Assembly (NCBI GenBank): GCA_014381785.1
Contig: JACNKZ010000024.1
Location: forward strand, 1 to 40,405
From: Kiritimatiellota bacterium
GTDB taxonomy: Bacteria > Verrucomicrobiota > Kiritimatiellia > Kiritimatiellales > Tichowtungiaceae
Direction: 5' to 3'
DNA length: 40,405 nt
The position numbers were made by a program, and so were the translations under genes. Below, piece after piece: positions 1 through 19,228 of this stretch; the first letter of the stretch is position 1; each line of letters begins with the position of its first letter. Under the pieces are notes generated by a model, which ran no database searches, had not been told where the DNA came from, and saw nothing but the letters and a program-made list of their open reading frames with translations.

Positions 1-750
1 CACGGCTATTTCATCCCCTTCGTCAGCCTCGCGGTGATCTGGTACAACCGAAAAGAAATTTTTTCCGCCGAAACCGGGATCGACTGGCGCGGCCTGGTAG
101 TCGTTGTTTTTGCGCTGGGGATGCATTGGCTGGGCGCAAAAATGCAGCAGACCCGTTTCTCATTAATGAGTCTGGTTCTGCTGATCTGGGGCATTCCGTT
201 TTATCTGTTCGGCTGGCAGCTCGCAAAAAAAATCATTTTCCCCTGCGCCTATCTGACATTCTGTATCCCGCTAAACTTTTTGGATGTGATCGCTTTCCCT
301 TTGCGTATGTTTTCGACCAAACTCTCGGTGGGAATGCTCAATGGATTCGGTATTGAGGCGGTTCGCTCTGGAACGGCCATCTTGATTCCGTCGATGCCGA
401 CCGGAATGGATGTTGCCGACCCCTGCAGCGGGTTGCGTTCCCTGTTGGCTATGACTGCATTGACTGCGGTCTACGCTTATTTTACCCAGAAAACACTGCT
501 GAAAAAGTGGATCCTTTTCCTGGCATCAATCCCTCTGGCGGTGGTTGGGAATATTGCGCGTATTGTCACCATCGCCGTGGTGGCGGAGGCGCTTGGGCCC
601 AAGCCCGCCCTCGGGCTCTACCATGACTTTTCCGGATATATTCTTTTTACCGCGGCGATTATAACCATGGTGATTACCGGCAGTTTGTTGAATATGGAAT
701 TTAGGGAGGTTGCAGCAAAATGGAAATCCGCTCTTTCAGCCCGCACCTGA
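1..750 (+). CDS. Exosortase (C-terminal part, 5' end outside window)
   Basis: Integral membrane cysteine protease-like transpeptidase of the exosortase/archaeosortase family, which processes secreted proteins carrying a C-terminal PEP-CTERM-type sorting signal. The reading frame is open from base 1, and the first residues (HGYFIPFVSLAVIW) match the internal HGYliPl motif of the family, so the start lies upstream and the GTG at 34 is not the real start. The three catalytic positions are visible: Cys in PCSGLRS (about 421-441), Arg in NIARI (about 550-564) and His in HDFSGYI (about 622-642). Several hydrophobic segments alternate between them. The last 31 bases overlap epsI, so the two are translationally coupled. 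No clear PEP-CTERM substrate lies in this window. Family assignment is firm; the exosortase subtype is not resolved. Confidence 0.9.
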   Translation, partial: HGYFIPFVSLAVIWYNRKEIFSAETGIDWRGLVVVVFALGMHWLGAKMQQTRFSLMSLVLLIWGIPFYLFGWQLAKKIIFPCAYLTFCIPLNFLDVIAFPLRMFSTKLSVGMLNGFGIEAVRSGTAILIPSMPTGMDVADPCSGLRSLLAMTALTAVYAYFTQKTLLKKWILFLASIPLAVVGNIARIVTIAVVAEALGPKPALGLYHDFSGYILFTAAIITMVITGSLLNMEFREVAAKWKSALSART

Positions 751-1496
751 TTTTGATCGGGTTAATGGCCTTAACGGCTCTGGCCTTGGCATTCACGGTG
801 GATGTCACCTTGAGTGATCAGGCCGGGGTTCGCATGGAACTGCCTGCTCAGATTGATGAGTGGGCCGGAGATGAGTTGCGCTATACCCATGACCGCGATA
901 ATCCGAAACAGTATCGGGTAAGTGAACTGGAACTTCCGGACATTGACCCGGAAACTGGCGAAAAACTCTATACCATGAGTTATGCAGAGTATGAGGCGCT
1001 GCCGCATGATACCGAGTTCCGCAAATCAATTTATACCAACAACGTCGACGGCCGTGTTTTTGTTTCCATCGTTCTTTCGGGAAGAGAGCGCGACAGTATT
1101 CATCGTCCGCAACGTTGTCTGGTCGGGCAGGGCCTTGCCATCGTGGATACCGAAAGGATCGAAATCCCTCTCGCGGGAAGGGAGCCTCTCAAAGCGGACG
1201 TTTTAAAGACGGAACGGCGTTATCGTAATGAAGCGGGCGAAATGGAGACGTATTACGGTTACTACGCGTACTGGTTTGTTGGGCAGAACCGCGAAACCCC
1301 CAGCCATTATGAGCGTATGTTCTGGCTGGCCTGGGACCGGGTCGTTCACAGCGTGGCCCATCGCTGGGCTTATATTGCCGTGTCTGGGCGGCGTGACGGT
1401 GAGGAGTCGGAAGAGTACAAACAGGAAATCATCGACTTCGTTAAGAAACTATATCCCCACCTTCTATTAGATTCTCCGCAAAACGGACACGGTTGA
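720..1496 (+). CDS. epsI: EpsI-family exosortase-associated protein (DUF3485)
   Basis: A 258-residue protein with one N-terminal membrane anchor (about residues 8-26) and a periplasmic domain. It carries the family hallmark HRPQRCLVGQG in the middle, after a VSIVLSGRERDSIH segment. EpsI proteins are encoded beside, or fused to, exosortases in exopolysaccharide or biofilm-associated loci, and their biochemical role is unsettled. The start at 720 is favoured by a GGGAGG ribosome site about 9 bases upstream, inside the end of the exosortase gene. The stop codon TGA at 1494-1496 is overlapped by the -35 element of the leu promoter, so the next transcription unit starts immediately. Confidence 0.88.
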   Translation: MEIRSFSPHLILIGLMALTALALAFTVDVTLSDQAGVRMELPAQIDEWAGDELRYTHDRDNPKQYRVSELELPDIDPETGEKLYTMSYAEYEALPHDTEFRKSIYTNNVDGRVFVSIVLSGRERDSIHRPQRCLVGQGLAIVDTERIEIPLAGREPLKADVLKTERRYRNEAGEMETYYGYYAYWFVGQNRETPSHYERMFWLAWDRVVHSVAHRWAYIAVSGRRDGEESEEYKQEIIDFVKKLYPHLLLDSPQNGHG

Positions 1497-5174: not shown

Positions 5175-5218
5175 GCCGCCGGGACGGCGGCGATACGTAC
5201 CGCAGGCGTCCCGCCTGC
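5175..5218. repeat. Compound palindromic repeat, GCAGGCG family copy B
   Basis: Two adjacent hairpins. GCCGCC/GGCGGC lies at 5175-5191, and the GCAGGCG element at 5197-5218 matches copy A (3395-3416) at 21 of 22 bases. It sits between converging genes (prepilin peptidase and the fusion enzyme) and its last base is the first base of the fusion gene's stop codon. It could act as a transcription end or RNA-stability element, but no clear T-run follows. Confidence 0.7.
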
Positions 5219-8200
5219 TACTGCTTTTCGATGACGGCCGCGCCGAAGGTGAAGCCGCCGCCGAAGGCGGTCAGACCGATTTTTGAACCGGCTTCGGTTT
5301 CGGGCATCAGCTCGGCCAGTGCGAACGGAATGGTGTTCGACGAGGTGTTGGCGTATTTGCCGATATGGTTGAACATTTTTTCCGGCGGACACTTAATCGT
5401 TTTGCGGATCGCTTCGATGATTCGCTCGTTGGCCTGATGCGGCACAATCCAGTCGAGCTCGCCGACGGTAACGCCGCGGCTTTCGCAGGCCTGCGTCAGC
5501 ATATTGATCATCTTCTTCACAGCCAGCTTGAAGACGGTCAGGCCTTCCATCTCAATTTTTTCTGTGCCGCCCATGTTCGGGACGAAGAGGATTTTCTCAT
5601 CCACGCCCATGGCGGAGAGAACCGGACGGTTGATGAGCGCGTTGATGTTGCCGTTGCGCGGCTCGCAGGAGAGCAGCGAGGCCGTCGCCGCGTCGCCGAA
5701 CAGGACGCTGGTTTTCGGATCGTCATGATTGATCATGGGCGAAAGGGTTTCGGAGGTGATGACGATCACTTTTTTCGATGAATCATCGCGCAGAATATCG
5801 ACTGCATTCTGCAGGGCGTACATGTAGCCGGAGCAGGCGGCGTTTACATCGTGCGCCTGCATCAGCACTTCGCCCTTTTCGGGGCTGAGTTCTTTAAGAA
5901 CGCGGCAGGCGAGTGACGGCGTCATCGAAAGCGGCGTGCCGGTCGAGCAGACCATTGCGTCGATATCAGAGATGGCGAGGCCTTCTTTTTCGAGCAGATC
6001 GCGCGCGGCGTTAACCGCCAGAGAAATTACGTTTTCGTCGCCATCAATCCAGTAGCGGGTGGTGATGCCGGTTCGTTTCTGGATGCCCGCCGAATCCCAT
6101 TCCGAGCCCGGCTCAACCAACTCGTCGTTCATCACTTTCCGTGAGCCCAGCACGGTGGTGATTGAAGATAGAATGACTGGTTTAGAGGTTGGCCTGTCCG
6201 CCGCAGCCTTGGCGGAAACCTTTATAGCGGCGGCGTTCTTTTCGAGAATCGGCGTGCCGGGGTTTTCGGAGGTGACCGGCTTTTTGATCATGTCGGTTGC
6301 ATCGGTCTTGATGCGGGCGAGCGGAGTGCCGACATCCACGGCGTCGCCTTCGGCGAGCAACAGCTCTTCGACGACTCCATCGACCGGGGTTGAAATCTCC
6401 ATAGTTGCTTTGTCGGCTTCGACGGATGCCAGCAGATCGCCGGCGTTGACAGTCTGTCCGGCCTCAACCTGCAGTTCGGTTATTGTCACGGTCTTATCGG
6501 ACGGGCTGGAGCCGATCGCGTTAACGATCACAGAGCCCTCGGCCTCTTCGACCGGTTTCTGCCACGTGAGCGAGTAGTCGAGTAGCTCGGCCGCTTTGCC
6601 GAGAATACTCTTAAAGGAGGGCAGCACCTCCATCTGCGTTTCAAAAAGATACGGAATGTAGGTGTCCGCCCGTGTCACGCGCGCCATTTGTATTTCCACG
6701 CCCGCTCTTTCGGCAATGGTCGCGAGAATTTCGCCACCCAGTCCGCACGTATGGTTGTCTTCGTGGACGACCAGCAGCTTACCGGTCTTCCGCGCGGAGG
6801 CGATGATGGTTTCTTCGTCCCACGGGGAGAGCGACCTCAGATCAATCACTTCAGCGGAGGCGCCGGCTTCCTGAAGCGCATCGGCTGCTTTTTCGCACAG
6901 CGGCATGGTGCTACCCCAGCTGACCATCGTCAGCTCTTTACCGGGGCGCGAGACGCGTGCTTTGCCGATCGGAACGAACTGCTCAGCCGCATTTTCGGCG
7001 CAGGTAACCGACCGGTCGTTGATCAGGTTTTTCGGGAACAGGAAAATAGTCGGTCGGCCCGATTCAAACGCGGCGTTGAGCAGGCCGGCGGCATCGGCGG
7101 CAGTTGAGGGCATCAGCACATCGAGGCCGGGAATATGCGCGAAGGTGGCATCGAATGTTTGCGCGTGATACGGCCCGAGCCCGGGGCGGTACGCCCCGCA
7201 AATGGCGGCGACAATCACCGGGCATTCCCACTGGCCGTTGGTGCGCCACCACATCGCGCCGAGCTCGGAGGCGATCTGGTTGAAAGCGGGCAGCATAAAG
7301 TCGGCAAACTGAATGCTGGCAACCGGTTTCTTTCCGGCGAGCGCCTGGCCGATCGCCGCGCCGACGATGGTGGATTCGCTAAGCGGCGAGTTGACGACCT
7401 GGCCTGGGAAAGCGGTGCTCAGCCCGCGCGTCAGGCCAAAGACATCCCCTTTGGGGTCTTCGATGTCTTCGCCGTACATATAAGCGGACGGGTCGCCCGC
7501 GAAACGGGCGCGCAACACTTCGCGCATCGCCTCGATCATCGTCAGCGCGTCGCCGTCGGTCCGCTGTTCCGGCTTCGCTGGCGGCAGCGGTTTTTTCGCG
7601 GACAGTTCCGTGACGGCATTCGACGCTTTGCGCGCGATTTTGAAGGCTTCATCCATGGCATGATTGATCTCATGCTCAATTTCTTTGAGCTGTTCTTCCG
7701 GAATTCCGGCGGCGATCAGCTTTCCGGCCAGGTTCAGAACCGGATCGGCGTTGGCGTGCATATCACTGATTTCCTCTGTGGAGCGGTAGAGGGTGTGGTC
7801 GTCGGCGTTGGTGTGGCTTGTCAGCCGCTCAAGGTTGAGTATGACGATCTGCGGCCCGCCGGTTTTCCGAATCGTGGAAACCGCCTCGCCAAACACCTTG
7901 TGGGCATCGACGGCATCGGTGCCGTCCGCGCGCAGCAGATCAATTCCGTAAAACGCATCGACATCGCCATCGGGCCGCGAAAAGAAGGTGCGGCCCTTGG
8001 ATGGGGTGGAGAGAGCAAATTTATTGTTCTGAACCACAAACAGGACGGGCAGGTTGGATCGGACTGCTTCCGCCACCGCCTCAAAGAATTCACCCTCCTG
8101 GGTTCCGCCGTCGCCGATCCCGCAGTAGACGATCTCACCTTTTTCTTTCACGGCCTGCGCCACGCCGATAGCCTGCAAGGTGTTGGAGGCGACGCCGGTC

Positions 8201-8535
8201 GGCGCACTCAGCAGCTTCAGCTCGCGGCTGCAGGCGAAGCCGGGCATGCGACGTCCTTCGGTGGGTGAACCGGTTCGGCCGAGAAGCTCAAGCAGCATAT
8301 CGGTCAGGGTGACGCCGCGGGCGAGCATCAGCGCGCGGTCGCGGTAGTGGCAATGAAGCCAGTCGTTTGGTGTCAGATGCGGAGCCAGCGCCGCCATCGC
8401 TTCGTGGCCGGACGCCGGAATATAGAAAAAGGCCTCACCGCGCTGGGCGGCATCTGCCTGCACCGCGTCGGCTTTACGCGACGTCACCATGTGGCGGTAA
8501 ATCTCGAGAAAGAGGGGGATATCTGTTTTTTGCAT
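5218..8535 (-). CDS. Fusion: 2-oxoacid dehydrogenase E1 alpha + E1 beta + lipoyl domain + ketoacyl-ACP synthase III
   Basis: A single 1105-residue protein with four modules. Residues 1-315 are an E1 alpha domain with the thiamine-diphosphate motif GDG (141-143) to NN (170-171). Residues 330-660 are E1 beta (YGEDIED, SPLSESTIVGAAIG, QFADFM). Residues 664-745 are a biotinyl/lipoyl domain with attachment Lys709 in EADKATME. Residues 785-1105 are a FabH-like domain with intact catalytic Cys901 (NAACSGY), His1033 (VPHQANE) and Asn1063 (KYANTSSN). No E2 acyltransferase or E3 domain is present. I infer that the E1 unit decarboxylates a 2-oxoacid onto Lys709-lipoyl and that the KAS III domain may take the acyl group to start a chain on malonyl-ACP. 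The substrate is unknown. The frame is open throughout, with no sign of an error joining two genes. There is no clear Shine-Dalgarno before ATG 8535, and the leader is AT-rich. The linker after the lipoyl domain contains a repeat at 6194-6217. Confidence 0.9.
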   Translation of the reverse strand: MQKTDIPLFLEIYRHMVTSRKADAVQADAAQRGEAFFYIPASGHEAMAALAPHLTPNDWLHCHYRDRALMLARGVTLTDMLLELLGRTGSPTEGRRMPGFACSRELKLLSAPTGVASNTLQAIGVAQAVKEKGEIVYCGIGDGGTQEGEFFEAVAEAVRSNLPVLFVVQNNKFALSTPSKGRTFFSRPDGDVDAFYGIDLLRADGTDAVDAHKVFGEAVSTIRKTGGPQIVILNLERLTSHTNADDHTLYRSTEEISDMHANADPVLNLAGKLIAAGIPEEQLKEIEHEINHAMDEAFKIARKASNAVTELSAKKPLPPAKPEQRTDGDALTMIEAMREVLRARFAGDPSAYMYGEDIEDPKGDVFGLTRGLSTAFPGQVVNSPLSESTIVGAAIGQALAGKKPVASIQFADFMLPAFNQIASELGAMWWRTNGQWECPVIVAAICGAYRPGLGPYHAQTFDATFAHIPGLDVLMPSTAADAAGLLNAAFESGRPTIFLFPKNLINDRSVTCAENAAEQFVPIGKARVSRPGKELTMVSWGSTMPLCEKAADALQEAGASAEVIDLRSLSPWDEETIIASARKTGKLLVVHEDNHTCGLGGEILATIAERAGVEIQMARVTRADTYIPYLFETQMEVLPSFKSILGKAAELLDYSLTWQKPVEEAEGSVIVNAIGSSPSDKTVTITELQVEAGQTVNAGDLLASVEADKATMEISTPVDGVVEELLLAEGDAVDVGTPLARIKTDATDMIKKPVTSENPGTPILEKNAAAIKVSAKAAADRPTSKPVILSSITTVLGSRKVMNDELVEPGSEWDSAGIQKRTGITTRYWIDGDENVISLAVNAARDLLEKEGLAISDIDAMVCSTGTPLSMTPSLACRVLKELSPEKGEVLMQAHDVNAACSGYMYALQNAVDILRDDSSKKVIVITSETLSPMINHDDPKTSVLFGDAATASLLSCEPRNGNINALINRPVLSAMGVDEKILFVPNMGGTEKIEMEGLTVFKLAVKKMINMLTQACESRGVTVGELDWIVPHQANERIIEAIRKTIKCPPEKMFNHIGKYANTSSNTIPFALAELMPETEAGSKIGLTAFGGGFTFGAAVIEKQ
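6194..6217. repeat. Repeat in the lipoyl-KAS III linker (shared with the NAGS gene)
   Basis: The segment CTGTCCGCCGCAGCCTTGGC plus 4 more bases matches 27886-27909 at about 20 of 24 positions. It encodes part of the Ala-rich linker (VSAKAAADRP) of the fusion protein on the minus strand. In the NAGS gene the similar sequence is read as LSAEALAK. The match is imperfect and Ala-rich coding could contribute. Confidence 0.45.
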
Positions 8536-8626: not shown

Positions 8627-8664
8627 AAAAAAGTGCCGCTGTACGGGGAAATGTACAGCGGCAC
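8627..8664 (-). terminator. Intrinsic terminator after the GEVED-repeat gene
   Basis: Perfect 12-bp inverted repeat GTGCCGCTGTAC (8633-8644) / GTACAGCGGCAC (8653-8664) with an 8-base loop. Read on the minus strand it is followed by six T (8627-8632). It lies 23 bases past the stop of the 1290-residue gene and separates it from the fusion gene's promoter region (8536-8626). Confidence 0.9.
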
Positions 8665-8687: not shown

Positions 8688-11600
8688 CTAGTCAGTCCAT
8701 GGCGCAATGATGCGGAAGAATTGCGAGGTTGGCGAGGCGGAGTTGGTTTGCCAGTTGACCGGGCCCGTCAGCGATCCGCCGACATCGGCCCAGAGGTTGG
8801 TGAGAAGGTTCGTCGAGCTTTGCACCTTATAGATGATGTTGCTCTCGGCGTTCCATTCGACTTTGGCCAAGGCATTGGAGAGTGTGACAGTGATATTGGT
8901 GATGATGAGGTTGGTGGGAGCCGGCTGGTAGAGTTCGACCAGATAGTCTTCTACTTCGCCATCTGCCGCTGCTCCGGTCGGCAGGAGTCCGCCAGCCGAG
9001 GAGATGCGGAAGCGGGCGTACGTCGGGCCGAGCGCCTGCGCCGGAAGTCCCGGAACTGTAAAGCTGTAGTTGTTGGCCCCCGGATTTACTGTTTGCGCTG
9101 TGCCGCCCCACAGATGTTCGGATGGATCGCTCCAGCTGCCGTCGGCGTTGAAGTCGATCCACGCGTCGAGAAGGCCTCCGGACACACCGCCCACAACCAC
9201 CACCGTGGCGTTGGTTCCCGCCACGACTTGGGAGGTGAAGGCGACGCCGTCTTCGTCATCAAGGCCGGTGGTATCATCGCCGTCGGCTGCCGTTTTTGGG
9301 ACGCCGTCAGTCTCGGCATCGATGGTTGCGCCGAGCACAACACCGGCTGCAATGGTATGGCTGGCGCCGGCGCTGGCACTCAGCGTTGGGTAGGATGGAT
9401 CCGGTGCATCACCCCAGTCCGTACCGCCTGCAAGAGGCGTGATGTAATACTCATAGTCTTCAACCTCACCATCCATACACAATCCTGTATAGGAGACACC
9501 GGCGGGATAGGCACTGGTACCCCCGCTGAGGCGGAAACGTGCATAAGCCGGGTTGCCAGGAGATGCCGTGAGCGGAACCGGGAAGACGAGTGAGGTAAGA
9601 CCTAGGCCCACCGGTTGATTGTTGAATATTCGGTCACCCGTTTGATTCCAGCTGCCGTCATTGTTAAAGTCTATCCAGGCATCGATAAACCCTGGAATAG
9701 AGGCAATCACATCGACAGAGGCAAACCCACCCGGTTGGAGCAATGAGATAAGGTTTATTCCATCTTCGTCGTCGCCTGCCGAGGGGTAGACGAGATCTAT
9801 GTCGTCACCGTCAGCGTTCGCTGTGGGCTGACCATCCGGTTCTCCATCCGCATAGTTTCCTAAGAATAAAGGGTTTCCAATTAAGTGGTGCGCGCCGTTG
9901 TTGGCTCGAAGCGTCGGATAGGGTGTATCTGGCGCATCGCCCCAATCAATCTCCTGCACATCATCAATATTGAGCATGTAGTCTTCGACCTCGCCATCTT
10001 GTGCGAGTCCGGACGGAGGGAGTCCTCCGGCGGAACTGATGCGGAACCGCGCATAGGTGTTTGTTGCTGGTGCAGCATGGGTCGGAACAGGGACGAGATA
10101 TGTGTATGATCCGGGTGTCAGCACACCGGTGCCTATTATTTTCTCACCGGGATTTGCCCATATTCCATCTGCATTCCAATCGATCCATGCATCAACCGAT
10201 CCACCCGGCCCCCCCACTACGACTTGTACCTGTGCCACGGCACCGGGGACAAACGGAGTCAACCAGGTAACGCCGTCTTCATCGTCGCCTGAAGACGAGT
10301 AGAGGACATCGAGATCGTCGCCGTCGGCCAGCACGGTCGGTTGGCCATTCGGTTCGGGGTCGACCAGGCTGCCGAGGAACGGGTTCAGCCCACCTCCCAG
10401 GATGATATGGGCAGCGCCGCTACTGGTGGCAAGCGTTGGATAGGGCGTGTCGGGCGCATCACCCCAGTCCAGTTCTTCGACATCCACGGTGTAGTCTTCC
10501 ACTTCACCGTCGGTGGCATTGCCGGTGGGTAGCGGAGCGCCGCTTGCGTATGCGGATGCGGAACTCGTGTAGCGGAAGCGCAGATAATTCTGCCCCGCCG
10601 GTGTTCCAATCGGCAAAAGGAAGCTGAGCGGGTTCGACCCGGCAATAACACCGCTGCTGAAAACGTGCTCAGTTGGAAGATCCCATGTTCCGTTACCGTT
10701 TAGATCCATCCAGACATCGAGTTGTCCGACGGCGGAAGCGGTGGCGTTAAAGGTGACGCTTTGTCCGGGTACAAACGACGACGTGAATGTGATGCCGTCT
10801 TCGTCAGCCAGATTATTCACATCATCCCCGTTTGCGGCGGCCGTGGGCTGGCCGTCAGTCTCGGCATCAATGGTTGCGCCGAGGATATAGGTCTGGCTGA
10901 TCGTGTGGTTGGCCCCGTTGTTTGCGGCCAGCGTGTTGTAGCTGTCCGGCAGATCGCCCCAGTCGAAGTCCTCCGGCTCCTGTTCGTCTGGGCCGTCGAT
11001 GATGAAGGCGAGGTCCATGGACTGTTCGAACAGTGGTGGCTCGTAGAGTTCTTGCCACTGGGCGACGGGTATGTCGGCCCAGACGGCGTCGTCGTTCCAG
11101 TGGTTAGTGGTGGTTTTCCAGCCCCACTGACCGAAGGCTGTTTCCACGGAGACATCGAGCCAGTAGATGGTATTGCTGGTTTGGATGAAGGCCTCTTCGG
11201 TTGGAATCGTGATGTCGTAGCGGAAATAGTTGGAATGGTTGTTTGGAATATATTCGCCCAGATTCGGATCGTACCATCCCTGCATAGAGGGCTCTTCCGG
11301 TGTGATCGTCACACTCCATCCCGCTGGAGGATTGTGAGGGTCGAGGTTCCATTCCTGCAGCGCGGGCAGTTCCGGCATGCTGAAAAGAGGGCCCTCATCA
11401 TCGGGGTCGGGAATATCGTTGTGGATGCTCAGGTGGATGTTGGTGATTCCCTGATAAGGATCTGCCACATCAAACTCGTCGTAAAACCATGAGCCCCAGA
11501 AAATAATGTTGGTGATGGGGCCGCTGGCGGTGCAGAGGAAGTCATCTGCGAGAATCTTGGTCTTGCCGTCTCCGCCAGACTGTACTTCCCAATTGCAGGC

Positions 11601-12560
11601 GCGGACATCCCAACCGTTGGGGTCCGGGAGCTGCGGGTAGTGCATCTTGTGCGACACCACATCTTCTTCATCGTTGTAAAAAACGGAGGCGTCCGAAGCG
11701 TAGATGTATTCGATCTCTTCCCCCGTCCAGAATGGAGGCAGCGGTGTAGAGATATAACTGCCGTTGTCGATCAGCAGGGTATCGAGCCAGTGGCTGATTT
11801 TCAAAGAGGTGTGCCGATTATAGAGTACATCCATTCCCATCTGCTGGCTGGCGCGGATCACGCTGTGGCGGTAATCACTGATGGGCATGCCGGATCCCGT
11901 TACAGTGAACTGCATCAGTACGGTTGACTGCCCGCCGGCGGGAATATCGAACGGAACTAGTTTCCATGATGGAACCTGGAACTGTCCCGCCGGTTGATAC
12001 GGTTGCTGCTGACCCGGCGTCCAGCAGTACCATGCCCGTTCGTCTTCATTGGCGGCCACAATATAATAAGTGCCGCCAGAACCCGGATCGGGCCAGTAGG
12101 GCGGTGCGCTGCCCGCCGGCACCATATTGGTATCGGCTAGAGCGAATTCGGCGGTAATACGCACCTGTTGCATTAGGTCTTCACCGCTGGTTACACCGGA
12201 TGCGGCCTGCACTTCACCATGACTGTTGGTCACGCTTCCACCTGAATAATCGGCGGGGAGGCTGTTGGATACCGTTGCCAGAATCGCAAATCCTGTAATG
12301 TTGCCTAATGCGTTGGTGGTGATGCTCTGAACAACCCCTGCTATCGTCAGTGAGTTATCATTGTCATGATATTCTCGCGTACAGGCGTTGGTCGTGCCGG
12401 AGGTTGGGTCGAGGAACCATTGGCCCTGCACAGCCATGCTGTCCCATAAAGGGCCGCATGGGGATTGCGTCTGAAAGGTGTCGGAAGTGACGGGCCGGCT
12501 TGGGCCGGCGAACGCAAGCGCGCATTGGAGGGTGGTCAAAAGAATAAGTTTTGCTCTCAT
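8688..12560 (-). CDS. Secreted GEVED-repeat protein, 1290 aa
   Basis: Signal peptide (MRAKLILLTTLQCALAFA) followed by a long extracellular protein. The N-terminal half holds a domain with the pattern TKILADDFLCTASGPITNI (about residue 335), seen in large secreted PVC proteins. From about residue 533 to 1205 come four tandem modules, each opening with DWGD.PD...PTL, carrying an Asp-rich DG.P...ADGDD...DEDG stretch and D.W.D.N.DG.W, and closing with GEVEDY. The Asp-rich loops resemble calcium sites (inference). The last 85 residues form a domain ending TSQFFRIIAPWTD. I see no PEP-CTERM tripartite signal, so it is probably not a substrate of the exosortase at 1-750. Start ATG 12560 has AGGAG about 6 bases upstream. 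Likely a cell-surface or released adhesin or matrix protein; the exact role is unknown. Confidence 0.85.
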   Translation of the reverse strand: MRAKLILLTTLQCALAFAGPSRPVTSDTFQTQSPCGPLWDSMAVQGQWFLDPTSGTTNACTREYHDNDNSLTIAGVVQSITTNALGNITGFAILATVSNSLPADYSGGSVTNSHGEVQAASGVTSGEDLMQQVRITAEFALADTNMVPAGSAPPYWPDPGSGGTYYIVAANEDERAWYCWTPGQQQPYQPAGQFQVPSWKLVPFDIPAGGQSTVLMQFTVTGSGMPISDYRHSVIRASQQMGMDVLYNRHTSLKISHWLDTLLIDNGSYISTPLPPFWTGEEIEYIYASDASVFYNDEEDVVSHKMHYPQLPDPNGWDVRACNWEVQSGGDGKTKILADDFLCTASGPITNIIFWGSWFYDEFDVADPYQGITNIHLSIHNDIPDPDDEGPLFSMPELPALQEWNLDPHNPPAGWSVTITPEEPSMQGWYDPNLGEYIPNNHSNYFRYDITIPTEEAFIQTSNTIYWLDVSVETAFGQWGWKTTTNHWNDDAVWADIPVAQWQELYEPPLFEQSMDLAFIIDGPDEQEPEDFDWGDLPDSYNTLAANNGANHTISQTYILGATIDAETDGQPTAAANGDDVNNLADEDGITFTSSFVPGQSVTFNATASAVGQLDVWMDLNGNGTWDLPTEHVFSSGVIAGSNPLSFLLPIGTPAGQNYLRFRYTSSASAYASGAPLPTGNATDGEVEDYTVDVEELDWGDAPDTPYPTLATSSGAAHIILGGGLNPFLGSLVDPEPNGQPTVLADGDDLDVLYSSSGDDEDGVTWLTPFVPGAVAQVQVVVGGPGGSVDAWIDWNADGIWANPGEKIIGTGVLTPGSYTYLVPVPTHAAPATNTYARFRISSAGGLPPSGLAQDGEVEDYMLNIDDVQEIDWGDAPDTPYPTLRANNGAHHLIGNPLFLGNYADGEPDGQPTANADGDDIDLVYPSAGDDEDGINLISLLQPGGFASVDVIASIPGFIDAWIDFNNDGSWNQTGDRIFNNQPVGLGLTSLVFPVPLTASPGNPAYARFRLSGGTSAYPAGVSYTGLCMDGEVEDYEYYITPLAGGTDWGDAPDPSYPTLSASAGASHTIAAGVVLGATIDAETDGVPKTAADGDDTTGLDDEDGVAFTSQVVAGTNATVVVVGGVSGGLLDAWIDFNADGSWSDPSEHLWGGTAQTVNPGANNYSFTVPGLPAQALGPTYARFRISSAGGLLPTGAAADGEVEDYLVELYQPAPTNLIITNITVTLSNALAKVEWNAESNIIYKVQSSTNLLTNLWADVGGSLTGPVNWQTNSASPTSQFFRIIAPWTD

Positions 12561-14736: not shown

Positions 14737-17022
14737 TTAACCGTTTTGCACCTGAATTTTCCACAGCACGCCTTTGAGTTTGACTAGCTGAATGGGTTTG
14801 GTCAGGTAATCGTCCATTCCGGCGGCCAGACCGCGTTCGCGCTCTTCTTTGGCGGCGTGGGCGGTCATGCCGACAACCAGCGGGCGCTTATGGGTCGTGC
14901 CCTCAAAGTGTTTAATGATTTCCTTTGTTGCGGTTAGTCCGTCCATGCGTGGCATTTGAATATCCATCAGCACAAGGTCGTAGGATTTTTTCTCGATCAT
15001 CTCCACTGCTTCCATGCCGTCGTTGGCCAGATCGGCCTTATAACCGAGTTTCTCGAGCATGCGCATAGCTACTTTCTGATTCAGCAGGTTGTCTTCCGTG
15101 ACAAGGATATTCAGTGGACGGGCGTTGTCGTGTGTGCGGACGGTAGTGATGAGTTCGGTATAGCTTCCGCTATCACCGCGTAGAATGTTGGAGATGTTTT
15201 GGTAGAGCTGGGCCGGTTTGGTTGGTTTGGTGAGATAGGCGGAAATATCCAACGATTCATCCGGTCTTCCAAGCCCCAGTGAGGTCAGCACAATGATCGG
15301 AAGCTCTTTGGCGGCGCGGTGCTTGCGCACCTCGCTAATCAGCATCGTGCCGTCCATTTTCGGCATCTGCATATCGGTGATCATCAGGGCATATTTGTCG
15401 CCCTTTTCAATGGATTCGAGCGCAGACTCCGGTGTGTTGAAGACGGTCGGGGTTAGACCCCAGCGATGCAGCTGGGCGGAGAGGATTTTCAGGTTGGTTT
15501 CGTTGTCATCCACGATGAGCACTTCGTAGCCCGTCACATCAAAGGCTGTTTGATCGCGTCGAATGGTTCGAACCTGTTTCGCGACGGCAGCGCACAGGGT
15601 GAAGTGGAAGGTGGCGCCCTCGCCGGGAACGCTTTCGGCCCACATGCGTCCGCCCATCAGTTCACTTAGTTTCCGGCTGATCGTCAGCCCGAGCCCTGTT
15701 CCGCCGTATTGTCGGGTGGTGGAGATATCGGCCTGTGTGAATTCCTTAAAGATTTTCTCCATCTGGTCCGGTTCAATGCCGATGCCGGTATCGCGAATTG
15801 AAAATTCAATTTCATGGCCCTGTTCAAATCGCCGGGCAGTTACCGAAACGCAGATTTCACCTTCATGAGTGAATTTGACGGCGTTGCTCAGCAGGTTGAG
15901 CAGAATCTGCCGCAATCGGCCTGTATCGCCCCGGATGACCGTCGGGACATTGCCGTCGATTTCGTAGACCAGTTCGATGTCTTTTTCGGCGGCTTTGGGC
16001 ACGATCAGGTCGAGCGATCCTTCAATGCATTGGCTTAAATCGAAATCCTGCTGTTCCAGCTCCATATGTCCTGATTCAATTTTCGAGAAGTCGAGAACCT
16101 CGTTAATCAGGGACATGAGGGCCTCACCACTGGTGCGAATGATGTTTGCGGACTCGCGCTGTTCCGGGTTGAGGTCGGTTTCCATCAGCAGATCGGTCAT
16201 GCCGATCACCGCATTCATCGGCGTGCGTATTTCGTGGCTCATGTTGGCCAGGAACGAGGTTTTAGCTGAGCTGGCAGCCTGAGCCTTTTCAGCATAGTGT
16301 TTCTCAGAGTGAATGGCATCCTTGAGCTTTTGTTCCACTTGAACACGCTGGGTTACGTCGCGGCAGTGCTCGATGGCGCTTGTGATTTTCCCCTGTGCAT
16401 CCCATACCGGCGAGGTGGTTATTTCCACGAATCGCATCTCCCCGTCTTTGTTGGGGTGTTCGTGAATTACAACTTTTACAGCTCCGGTTTTTAAAACCTC
16501 CTGCAGGGGGCACGGGGTGGTTTCGCCATCGCAGGGCGTTTCAGACTGATGAGAGACCTGGTGGCAACAAAGGCCCGCTTCAGATGGATCTTGTCCGAAT
16601 TCGGTCCGGACGGCCCGGTTTGCGAGCAGAACTCGGCGGTCGGGGCCCACCACCATCATTTTGTCAGGAACCGAGTCCATGATGCTTTTCAGAAAATCAA
16701 CGTTTTGGCGGGTTTCTTGTCGCGCCTCTTCGGCGGACTCCTGGGCCTGTTGCAGGGGGCGGAAAACCAACAGGTACAGGAGCGGCACGGCGACGAGTGC
16801 CAGCAGCAGAGGGGCCAGAAAAATCCCCAGTGCGGAGCTGATGCCCAGCTTGTGCCACAAAATCATAATCCCGGTCTCGGTTGCCAGCAGCAGAACGGCC
16901 AGGGCGGCCACGACCCTCCAGGGGTCTTCTATGAGCCATTTTATTACTACATCCAAAGGGCCGCCGGGTTGTTCGGCCGAGACAGAGGGTTTTGTAGTCA
17001 GACCTGTTTTTGGGAGGGACAT
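14737..17022 (-). CDS. Hybrid sensor histidine kinase with PAS domain and two receiver domains
   Basis: A 761-residue inner-membrane kinase. Order: two membrane segments (about 36-56 and 64-86), PAS domain (about 105-235), HisKA with phospho-acceptor His263 ([10 protein letters not shown]), HATPase (N380, DTGIGIE, GGTGLGL), receiver 1 (VDDNETN, Asp550) and receiver 2 (EDNLLNQK, Asp687). The PAS domain has a cluster of cysteines (LCCHQVSHQSETPC, then TTPCPL), which could bind metal or sense redox (inference). No HPt domain or output regulator is encoded nearby. The gene is a tandem duplicate of the next kinase (17378-19228), which lacks the PAS domain. The ribosome site is weak (GGAACG). Confidence 0.93.
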   Translation of the reverse strand: MSLPKTGLTTKPSVSAEQPGGPLDVVIKWLIEDPWRVVAALAVLLLATETGIMILWHKLGISSALGIFLAPLLLALVAVPLLYLLVFRPLQQAQESAEEARQETRQNVDFLKSIMDSVPDKMMVVGPDRRVLLANRAVRTEFGQDPSEAGLCCHQVSHQSETPCDGETTPCPLQEVLKTGAVKVVIHEHPNKDGEMRFVEITTSPVWDAQGKITSAIEHCRDVTQRVQVEQKLKDAIHSEKHYAEKAQAASSAKTSFLANMSHEIRTPMNAVIGMTDLLMETDLNPEQRESANIIRTSGEALMSLINEVLDFSKIESGHMELEQQDFDLSQCIEGSLDLIVPKAAEKDIELVYEIDGNVPTVIRGDTGRLRQILLNLLSNAVKFTHEGEICVSVTARRFEQGHEIEFSIRDTGIGIEPDQMEKIFKEFTQADISTTRQYGGTGLGLTISRKLSELMGGRMWAESVPGEGATFHFTLCAAVAKQVRTIRRDQTAFDVTGYEVLIVDDNETNLKILSAQLHRWGLTPTVFNTPESALESIEKGDKYALMITDMQMPKMDGTMLISEVRKHRAAKELPIIVLTSLGLGRPDESLDISAYLTKPTKPAQLYQNISNILRGDSGSYTELITTVRTHDNARPLNILVTEDNLLNQKVAMRMLEKLGYKADLANDGMEAVEMIEKKSYDLVLMDIQMPRMDGLTATKEIIKHFEGTTHKRPLVVGMTAHAAKEERERGLAAGMDDYLTKPIQLVKLKGVLWKIQVQNG

Positions 17023-17377
17023 CTAACGTTCCTTAACTATATGGGGGTTGCTTTATTTTAATCTTCAAATCTATTAGGATTTAGTGTGTCTGAAATGCGC
17101 ATAAAAAGAAAGATTTTTATAGGCCGATTGCAACGGTTCGTTGGGTCAAACCGTTCGCAGTCGACTTCAAGGCATTGGTCGCGCGCGAGCGAAGCGACGC
17201 ATAATTTGCGCAGCAAATAATGACCGAAGGGAGTGGTTCAATGAGACTGGCACGTAGCAATGGCGCTGAATCGGCAAAATGTAGAGGGAAACGTTCCGGG
17301 GGTTGCCTCTTCGCTTCGCTCGTTGCCGTCGCAGTAGCGCCAGCCTCTCCCGTCTTCGCCCCGGGCGGAAAAATCGG
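17023..17377. other. 355-bp spacer between the two kinase genes, part of the duplicated segment
   Basis: Holds the upstream region of the PAS-containing kinase. Bases 17161-17263 align without gaps to 19381-19483 upstream of the other kinase, including the identical 19-mer GAAGCGACGCATAATTTGC (17191-17209). So the duplication included about 240 bp of 5' flank. I find no gene here and no clear terminator for the kinase that ends at 17378. Confidence 0.7.
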
Positions 17378-19228
17378 TCAGCCAGCTTGTCCCTGAAGCG
17401 TCCAGAGAACTTCTTTTAGTTTGACCAGCTGGATCGGTTTGGTGAGGTAGTCGTCCATTCCGGCGGCCAACCCGCGCTCGCGCTCCTCATTCGCAGCATG
17501 GGCGGTCATGCCGATAATGAGCGGGCGCTTGTCGTCCGCAAAGTGTTTGATGATTTCTTCTGTTGCGGTCATTCCGTCCATCCGAGGCATTTGAACATCC
17601 ATGAAGATGAGGTCATATTCGTTTTTCTTAACCATTTCGAGCACTTCGATGCCGTCGTTGGCCAGATCGGCATGATAACCCATTTTCTCGAGCATGCGCA
17701 GGGCGACTTTCTGATTCAGCCGGTTATCTTCCGCAAGAAGGATATTCAGTGGCCGGGCGGCTTCGTGCGTGTGGACGGATGCAAGAACTTTGGTGTAGTT
17801 TCCGTCTTTGCCGTGCAGGATGTTGGAGATGTTCTGGTAGAGCTGGGCCGGCTTGGCTGGCTTGGTGAGATAGGCGGAAATATCCAGCGCTTCATTCGGA
17901 TTTTCAAGCCCCAGTGAGGTCAGCATAATGATTGGCAGCTCCGCCGCCGACCGGTGTTTGCGCACCTCGCTAATCAGCATGGTGCCGTCCATTTTAGGCA
18001 TCTGCATGTCGCTGATCATCAGGGCGTATTGATCACCTTGCGCAATGGATTCGAGTGCGGCATGCGGCGTATCGAAAACAACCGGCGTCAGACCCCAGTG
18101 GGTCAGCTGGGCAGAGAGGATTTTCAGGTTGGTTTCGTTGTCATCCACGATGAGCACATCGCGATGGGTCACATCAAAGGCTTTTTGATCGCTTCGAATG
18201 GTTCGAACCTGTTTCGCAACGGGAGTGCTCAGGGTGAAGCGGAAGGTGGTGCCCTCGCCGGGAACGCTTTCGGCCCACATGCGGCCGCCCATCAGTTCGC
18301 TCAGTTTCCGACTGATTGTCAGTCCGAGCCCTGTTCCGCCGTATTGCCGGGTGGTGGAAACATCGGCTTGTGTGAATTCGGCAAAGATCTGCTCCAGTTT
18401 GTCCGGTTCAATACCGATGCCGGTATCGCGAACCGCAAATTCAATTTCATGGCCCCGTTCGCTCTGCCGGGCGGTTACCGAAACGCAGATTTCGCCCTCA
18501 TGAGTGAATTTGACGGCATTACTCAGCAGGTTGAGCAGAATCTGCCGCAATCGGCCCTTATCGCCCCGGATGACCAACGGGACATTGCCATCGATTTCGT
18601 AGATCAGTTCGATGTCTTTTTCAGCGGCTCTGGGCACCATCAGGTCGAGCGATTCTTCAATGCACTGGCTTAAATCGAAATCCTGTTGTTCCAGCTCCAT
18701 GTGTCCCGATTCAATTTTAGAGAAGTCGAGAACATCATTAATCAGGGTCAGAAGAGCTTCGCCGCTGACGCGAATGATGCTGGCGGAGTCGTGCTGTTCC
18801 GGGTCGAGATCGGTTTCCATTAGCAGATCGGTCATGCCGATCACTGCATTCATCGGGGTGCGGATTTCGTGGCTCATGTTGGCTAGGAATGACGTTTTAG
18901 CTACGCTTGCGGCCTGAGCCTTTTCGGCAAAATCTTCTGCAGATGCTGCGGCCCGTTGCAGGGGGCGGAAAACCAACAGGTACAGGAGCGGCGTGCCGAC
19001 GATTCCCAGCAGTAGCGGGCCTAGAACAATCGCAACGACCGAGTTGATGGCCAGAACGTGACACAACAACATAACACCGGTCTCGATTGTAATCAGCAGA
19101 ACAGCCAGAATGGCCACAACTCTCCAGGTTTTGTGTGTGATCATGTTTACTACGATGCCCAAACGTTTAGTGGGTTTGTTGGACGAGGCAGGGGCTTTTG
19201 CAACCGGATCTGTTTTCGGCAGGGACAT
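17378..19228 (-). CDS. Hybrid histidine kinase with two receiver domains, PAS-less paralogue
   Basis: A 616-residue paralogue of the adjacent kinase: the same MSLPKT start, the same two membrane segments and [11 protein letters not shown] junction. Only a very short linker ([15 protein letters not shown]) then leads directly to HisKA with His120 ([10 protein letters not shown]). HATPase, receiver 1 (Asp407) and receiver 2 (Asp544) follow at very high identity. The PAS region of the sister (about 145 residues) is absent, so this one either lost its sensor or represents the ancestral form. AGGAG lies 7 bases before ATG 19228. With the same output modules but different inputs, the two could form mixed dimers or compete (inference). 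Confidence 0.92.

Follow-up and report, generated by a model that had tools for sequence, protein, structure and literature searches.

A predicted CoA-independent primer synthase that joins a 2-oxoacid dehydrogenase E1 to KAS III in one chain

Kiritimatiellota contig JACNKZ010000024.1 (positions 1 to 40,405; this whole stretch of 40,405 nucleotides is referred to here as the window) carries, on the minus strand from 8535 to 5218, a single open reading frame (ORF) of 1105 amino acids in which the alpha and beta parts of a 2-oxoacid dehydrogenase E1 are followed by a lipoyl domain and a β-ketoacyl-acyl carrier protein (ACP) synthase III (KAS III). We consider it probable that this fusion protein is a self-contained primer synthase for branched fatty acids that works without free coenzyme A (CoA): E1 would load lipoyl-Lys709, the lipoyl arm would hand the acyl group to Cys901 and the KAS III domain would condense it with malonyl-ACP. 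The support for this idea is comparative and comes from several independent lines. The wider proposition, which we put forward somewhat more cautiously as the better bet, is that a KAS III domain lacking CoA binding has replaced the E2 acyltransferase, giving a 2-oxoacid dehydrogenase with a C-C bond-forming acyl acceptor that, across several phyla, would determine the iso-even fatty acids of the membrane. In textbook accounts, bacterial type II fatty acid synthesis begins when KAS III takes up acyl-CoA, and acyl-CoA is the end product of 2-oxoacid dehydrogenases; if the proposal is true, the fusion is an exception to both rules, with an acyl-dihydrolipoyl arm priming the chain directly.

Domains, catalytic residues and the CoA clamp

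Pfam places E1_dh at residues 13-304 (E=8e-49), Transket_pyr at 330-505, Transketolase_C at 524-634, Biotin_lipoyl at 683-742 (1e-17), ACP_syn_III at 896-959 and ACP_syn_III_C at 1017-1103 (7e-26), and detects no E2 core (PF00198), no E3 domain and no E3/E1-binding (peripheral-subunit-binding, PSBD) domain in the product. This agrees with a sequence-only reading of the same DNA, which had proposed the four modules in one frame without E2 or E3: its coordinates are right, the strand, which it left unstated, is minus, and the residues it named (GDG 141-143, N171, K709, C901, H1033 and N1063) are all present. The first two modules combine E1_dh with transketolase pyrimidine and C-terminal domains and have the thiamine diphosphate motif, the loop His and the Glu and His of the beta part, as expected of an E1 of the alpha/beta type, and score below the cut-offs of the NCBIfam pyruvate dehydrogenase E1 alpha equivalogs TIGR03181 and TIGR03182 (186 of 411 and 149 of 394 bits). 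The lipoyl domain has the ExDKA lysine typical of 2-oxoacid dehydrogenase multienzyme complexes, the protein itself contains no E2 core, and no neighbouring gene is conserved at 30 loci. The C-terminal part passes the KAS III subfamily model PRK09352 (265.4 bits, cut-off 249) and fails TIGR00747, the model for FabH proper (221.5 bits, cut-off 292.1), which the stand-alone FabH of the same genome passes with 409.5 bits. An AlphaFold2 model built with 54 homologues has a mean predicted local distance difference test score (pLDDT) of 90, a predicted template modelling score of 0.71 and a disordered linker at 770-782; in Foldseek searches, the closest solved fold for the E1 beta part is the Thermus thermophilus branched-chain E1 beta subunit 1um9_B (TM score 0.94), and the C-terminal part matches FabH, with TM scores of 0.87-0.92 for most top hits.

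In the proposed model, the chain, with its alpha and beta halves joined, would probably pair as a homodimer that corresponds to the alpha2beta2 form of ordinary E1s. Using thiamine diphosphate, this E1 would decarboxylate a 2-oxoacid, for which 2-oxoisovalerate is the likeliest candidate, and reductively acylate lipoyl-Lys709. The flexible arm, now S-isobutyryl-dihydrolipoyl, would then reach KAS III. There Cys901 would receive the acyl group, and His1033 and Asn1063 would promote its decarboxylative condensation with malonyl-ACP; the product, 4-methyl-3-oxopentanoyl-ACP, is the first intermediate on the way to iso-even fatty acids. KAS III would act in E2's stead, and an E3 supplied in trans would reoxidise the dihydrolipoyl group. 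We infer three of these elements, namely lipoylation of Lys709, transfer from the arm to Cys901 and isobutyryl as the main primer.

The argument for a donor other than CoA comes from the KAS III domain. In Escherichia coli FabH, the adenine of CoA is sandwiched by Trp32 and Arg151, and Phe87 restricts the size of the primer. We surveyed these positions in E. coli numbering, after checking the key residues of the E. coli reference sequence, in 58 intact fusion sequences, which are 43-100% identical to that of the window and come from Kiritimatiellia, other Verrucomicrobiota, Spirochaetota and Sumerlaeota. Trp32 and Arg151 are present in 19 of 19 stand-alone FabHs of related genomes and in all five FabHs from the PDB that were aligned residue by residue, whereas none of the 58 fusion KAS III domains has either of them, nor any Trp in 29-35 or any Arg in 149-153. 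The Cys112-His244-Asn274 triad and the ACP-docking Arg249 that characterize FabH proper are present in all 58. Phe87, kept in 19 of 19 stand-alone FabHs, is Thr in 53 fusions and Ser in the other 5, and the mouth loop 189-207 comprises 10-15 residues in the fusions, compared with 25 in the stand-alone FabHs and 18 in E. coli. As judged from these alignments, the changes cluster at the CoA mouth and the primer gate and the condensation chemistry is spared, which is the pattern that a donor other than CoA predicts.

Distribution and origin

The four-domain order and its phylogenetic spread, which the sequence-only reading had wanted searched for, proved to extend as intact single frames to all four groups named above. 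Protein searches of whole genomes find a full-length, single-frame fusion in almost all relatives, at 57-82% identity. At a threshold of E<=1e-100, a match is found in 60 of the 346 genomes of the class, among them every genome of the window's genus and almost every one from the neighbouring family; the two that lack a match are incomplete. At the same threshold, 16 of 393 sampled Spirochaetota genomes match, with 14 fusions, one split copy (L123) and one protein that ends in E2 (L122); the fusion is also found in two of 40 Sumerlaeota genomes and in four genomes of other Verrucomicrobiota classes. Named records that carry it include Pontiellaceae, Pontiella desulfatans (a metagenome-assembled genome, L035), Spirochaetales and Candidatus Sumerlaeota. 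A few copies differ in length or integrity. The KAS III stretch is longer in two spirochaete fusions, L124 and L121, the latter cut at a contig end. In L004/L060 (genome G009) the frame stays open for 1511 codons, about 400 more than elsewhere, probably because it happens to be open far upstream rather than because the protein is truly longer. The split copy (L123:152-3644, minus strand) consists of three ORFs with 4-base overlaps (GTGA), with homology running nearly gapless across the breaks, one of which falls inside the lipoyl domain; these may be frameshifts or coupled fragments.

N171, H241, H457, K709, C901, H1033 and N1063 are invariant across the 58 fusions, E387 is invariant in a 54-row alignment and the GDG motif is nearly so. 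The ratio of non-synonymous to synonymous substitution rates (dN/dS), calculated module by module against seven relatives of the same genus, ranges over 0.05-0.25, and by this measure all four modules are under purifying selection. The linker between the lipoyl and KAS III domains is poorly conserved (10-41% identity), and the spacing from K709 to C901 is 184-212 residues in all but two of the fusions; a length that is mostly held and a sequence that is loose are as expected of a tether.

Single ORFs of the identical module order, but with an E2 domain (PF00198) after the lipoyl domain, occur in the same phylum. When the E1 parts are placed in a tree, the KAS III fusions group in a single clade (Shimodaira-Hasegawa-like approximate likelihood ratio test, 100) adjoining these E2-type fusions, and the nearest protein to the clade is a spirochaete E2-type protein (96), on a long branch and from a quick tree search. 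Because these nearest relatives are one-ORF E1alpha-E1beta-lipoyl-E2 enzymes, KAS III is, by homology, in the position of the E2 acyltransferase. The simplest story would be a single exchange of the E2 domain for KAS III, the direction of which depends on a root placed on five separate E1s. In Sumerlaeota (L160 and L161), a fused E1alpha-beta ORF precedes a distinct E2 gene, whose motif is DHRLIDG; this arrangement may represent an earlier stage of the fusion. The one-ORF E2-type proteins (L061-L075 and L122, from Verrucomicrobiota and one from Spirochaetota) have a DHRxxNG or DHKxxNG motif where ordinary E2s of the window's genome and related genomes have DHRxxDG, and their E2 acceptor may be altered too.

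Each module of the fusion thus has a known counterpart. It shares the E1 fold, the thiamine- and lipoyl-reacting His residues and a lipoyl domain with the alpha2beta2 E1s of 2-oxoacid dehydrogenases (T. thermophilus 1um9, Pseudomonas putida 1qs0 and Geobacillus stearothermophilus 1w85), but has alpha, beta and lipoyl parts in one chain and a KAS III acceptor, with no E2 core, E3 or PSBD. Its order matches that of the one-ORF E1alpha-E1beta-lipoyl-E2 enzymes, its closest E1 relatives, up to the lipoyl arm, after which theirs ends in a PF00198 acyltransferase with a DHRxxNG-type motif and the fusion in KAS III. With FabH (E. coli 1hn9 and Aquifex aeolicus 2ebd) it has the KAS III fold, Cys-His-Asn and Arg249 in common, and differs from it in being fused, in the lost clamp, in the change at Phe87 and in its short mouth loop. 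The expected product and logic are those of canonical branched-chain priming (branched-chain 2-oxoacid dehydrogenase, BCKDH, then acyl-CoA, then FabH), except that one polypeptide and a covalent lipoyl intermediate would replace separate enzymes and free acyl-CoA. In naphthyridinomycin biosynthesis, NapB/NapD reportedly also pass a thiamine-bound acyl group via lipoyl to a non-CoA acceptor, but are said to be separate proteins that provide a C2 unit for a peptide synthetase without KAS III condensation. A limited search of open-licence papers on such a fusion, on even-iso primers and on lipoyl-to-ACP transfer yielded no description; the modules are known, but in the open literature searched we found no account of a 2-oxoacid dehydrogenase that ends in a KAS III lacking FabH's CoA clamp.

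Primer, host enzymes and alternative explanations

Even-numbered iso acids require an isobutyryl primer, that is, 2-oxoisovalerate. The acids listed for Pontiella agarivorans, grown on galactose under N2, are exclusively straight-even or iso-even: C18:0, i-C12:0, i-C18:0 and i-C14:0, then C16:0, i-C16:0, C20:0 and i-C20:0 (PMC10880615). The major acids are of the same kind in P. desulfatans, P. sulfatireligans and Tichowtungia aerotolerans: in the three Pontiella species and Tichowtungia they are C18:0 plus i-C12:0, i-C14:0, i-C16:0 or i-C18:0. Kiritimatiella glycovorans has i-C14:0 (42%) and C18:0 (PMC10880615; PMC7356697). The host genome (2.2 Mb, 98.4% complete) encodes an ordinary FabH alongside the fusion, and the two, making straight and iso chains, respectively, would jointly explain such a profile.

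No E1alpha/beta besides the fusion and no separate-subunit POR_N protein (ferredoxin oxidoreductase) were found in the host genome, in which the only POR_N protein is a single chain of 1183 amino acids resembling pyruvate:ferredoxin oxidoreductase (PFOR); the fusion is therefore the sole evident host enzyme for branched 2-oxoacids. That PFOR-like chain also led us to reject a 2-oxoisovalerate:ferredoxin oxidoreductase as an alternative source of isobutyryl-CoA. Together with the iso-even acids of the cultured relatives, these searches make 2-oxoisovalerate the likely substrate and isobutyryl the likely primer. The sequence-only reading had offered a branched, odd or acetyl starter; the branched option stands, as isobutyryl, and acetyl is disfavoured because pyruvate is already served by AceE/AceF and PFOR and the relatives make even iso acids. 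The host further encodes a lone E3, lipoate synthase and proteins of the BPL/LplA/LipB family; lipoate synthase is present in 16 of 16 genomes tested, and E3 and BPL/LplA/LipB-family proteins in 35 of 35. Delivery from the lipoyl arm to KAS III without CoA, as first suggested from the sequence, is borne out to this extent: the clamp is lost throughout, the triad and docking Arg are invariant, the closest E1 relatives bear an E2, and lipoate synthase and E3 are at hand.

Several points weigh against this interpretation. Other CoA-using thiolase-fold enzymes may rely on residues besides Trp32 and Arg151, and the loss of these two is strong evidence for CoA-independence but not proof of it. In the ACP-docking patch of the fusions, conservation of Lys214 and Lys257 is only partial. 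FabH, an AceF-like E2 and E3 coexist in the host, so that another enzyme may transfer the acyl group to or from CoA. Some fusion-bearing relatives encode another E1, of about 790-850 amino acids, as a possible maker of acyl-CoA, and a further E1-E2-E3 set occurs in some relatives. A host devoid of any E2 would have settled the route, but E2 genes occur in all 35 genomes tested. They leave room for a scheme in which a separate E2 deacylates the lipoyl arm and the fused KAS III uses the free acyl-CoA as FabH does, the fusion providing mere proximity, much as canonical bacterial priming runs from BCKDH-made acyl-CoA to FabH. We think this unlikely, as the adenine clamp kept by every stand-alone FabH is missing from every fusion, no PSBD was found in the fusion, and the only E2 found in the host is encoded next to AceE and has the pyruvate E2 model as its best match, though without reaching the cut-off of that model. 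More improbable still is that KAS III serves as a transacylase, a substitute E2 that passes the acyl group on to ACP or CoA and performs no condensation: KAS III enzymes do have a side activity in acyl transfer and the domain does replace E2, but His244 and Asn274, the residues of decarboxylative condensation, are invariant with Cys112, and a pure transacylase would have no need of both.

An identical chemistry with another primer, either acetyl from pyruvate or a dedicated starter for a secondary metabolite in place of isobutyryl for membrane fatty acids, is an appreciable though minority prospect. The E1 family includes pyruvate enzymes, the sequence gives no certain substrate, and the main acids of the spirochaete Salinispira include iso-C15:0 (PMC4511686), which suggests that the primer may differ between lineages, spirochaetes included. 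Against it stand the host's own pyruvate enzymes, the opening of the pocket gate from Phe to Thr or Ser and a near-universal, housekeeping-like presence in its families; moreover, no neighbouring gene is conserved at 30 loci, hence there is no biosynthetic cluster. The chance that an assembly error or frameshift has merely fused separate genes is negligible: one spirochaete copy is indeed split into three ORFs, but independent intact frames in 58 sequences from several phyla, single-contig genomes included, rule such an artefact out.

If CoA-free priming by the fusion is true, it would spare CoA, withhold a scarce branched primer from the acyl-CoA pool and account for the unusual even iso acids used in describing Pontiella and Tichowtungia. 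The gene would then offer a marker for the iso-even lipid signature in sediments and, as a single-gene module, a tool for the engineering of branched fatty acids. Hosts are available in culture, which opens the proposal to testing.

Genomic surroundings

The features of the fusion gene are collected in the table below. Because terminator-like hairpins lie on its upstream side and at its convergent end, the gene looks like a transcription unit of its own.

Features of the fusion gene and its borders (positions in the window)
Feature	Position	Strand	Remarks
Whole fusion gene, 1105 aa	5218..8535	minus	ATG at 8535, stop at 5218-5220; homologues found
E1 alpha domain, residues 9-306	7618..8511	minus	PF00676 13-304; thiamine diphosphate motif G141-D-G...N171, loop His241 in SHTNADD
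E1 beta domain, residues 330-650	6586..7548	minus	Glu387 and His457; PF02779, PF02780; 1um9_B fold
Lipoyl domain, about residues 668-745	6301..6534	minus	Motif E706-A-D-K709-A; PF00364 683-742; K709 in 58/58
Variable lipoyl-KAS III linker, residues 746-786	6178..6300	minus	Low identity; pLDDT below 50 at 770-782
KAS III domain, residues 787-1105	5221..6177	minus	Cys901, His1033, Asn1063, ACP-docking Arg1038; clamp residues replaced; PF08545, PF08541, PRK09352
Terminator-like hairpin between upstream GEVED-protein gene and fusion gene	8633..8664	minus	12 pairs, T6 tail
Terminator-like hairpin ending the convergent plus-strand gene	5202..5218	plus	Just past the fusion stop

Among the 30 loci, no conserved operon and no conserved same-strand partner gene were found, and the commonest neighbour family is divergent and present at only 10 of them. 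The neighbouring leuA, which had been suggested as a supplier of branched 2-oxoacids, did not hold up as a functional partner: the gene is convergent, none of the other loci fetched has a leuA homologue close to the fusion, and we attribute the adjacency to chance. Upstream of the fusion, 8688-12560 (minus strand) encodes a protein of 1290 amino acids with four GEVED domains and DUF7901. Elsewhere in the window, 720-1496 (plus strand) encodes a DUF3485/EpsI-like exosortase-associated protein, a hint of an exosortase system although its score is below the cut-off for EpsI, and 14737-19228 (minus strand) encodes two hybrid histidine kinases in tandem with two receiver domains apiece.

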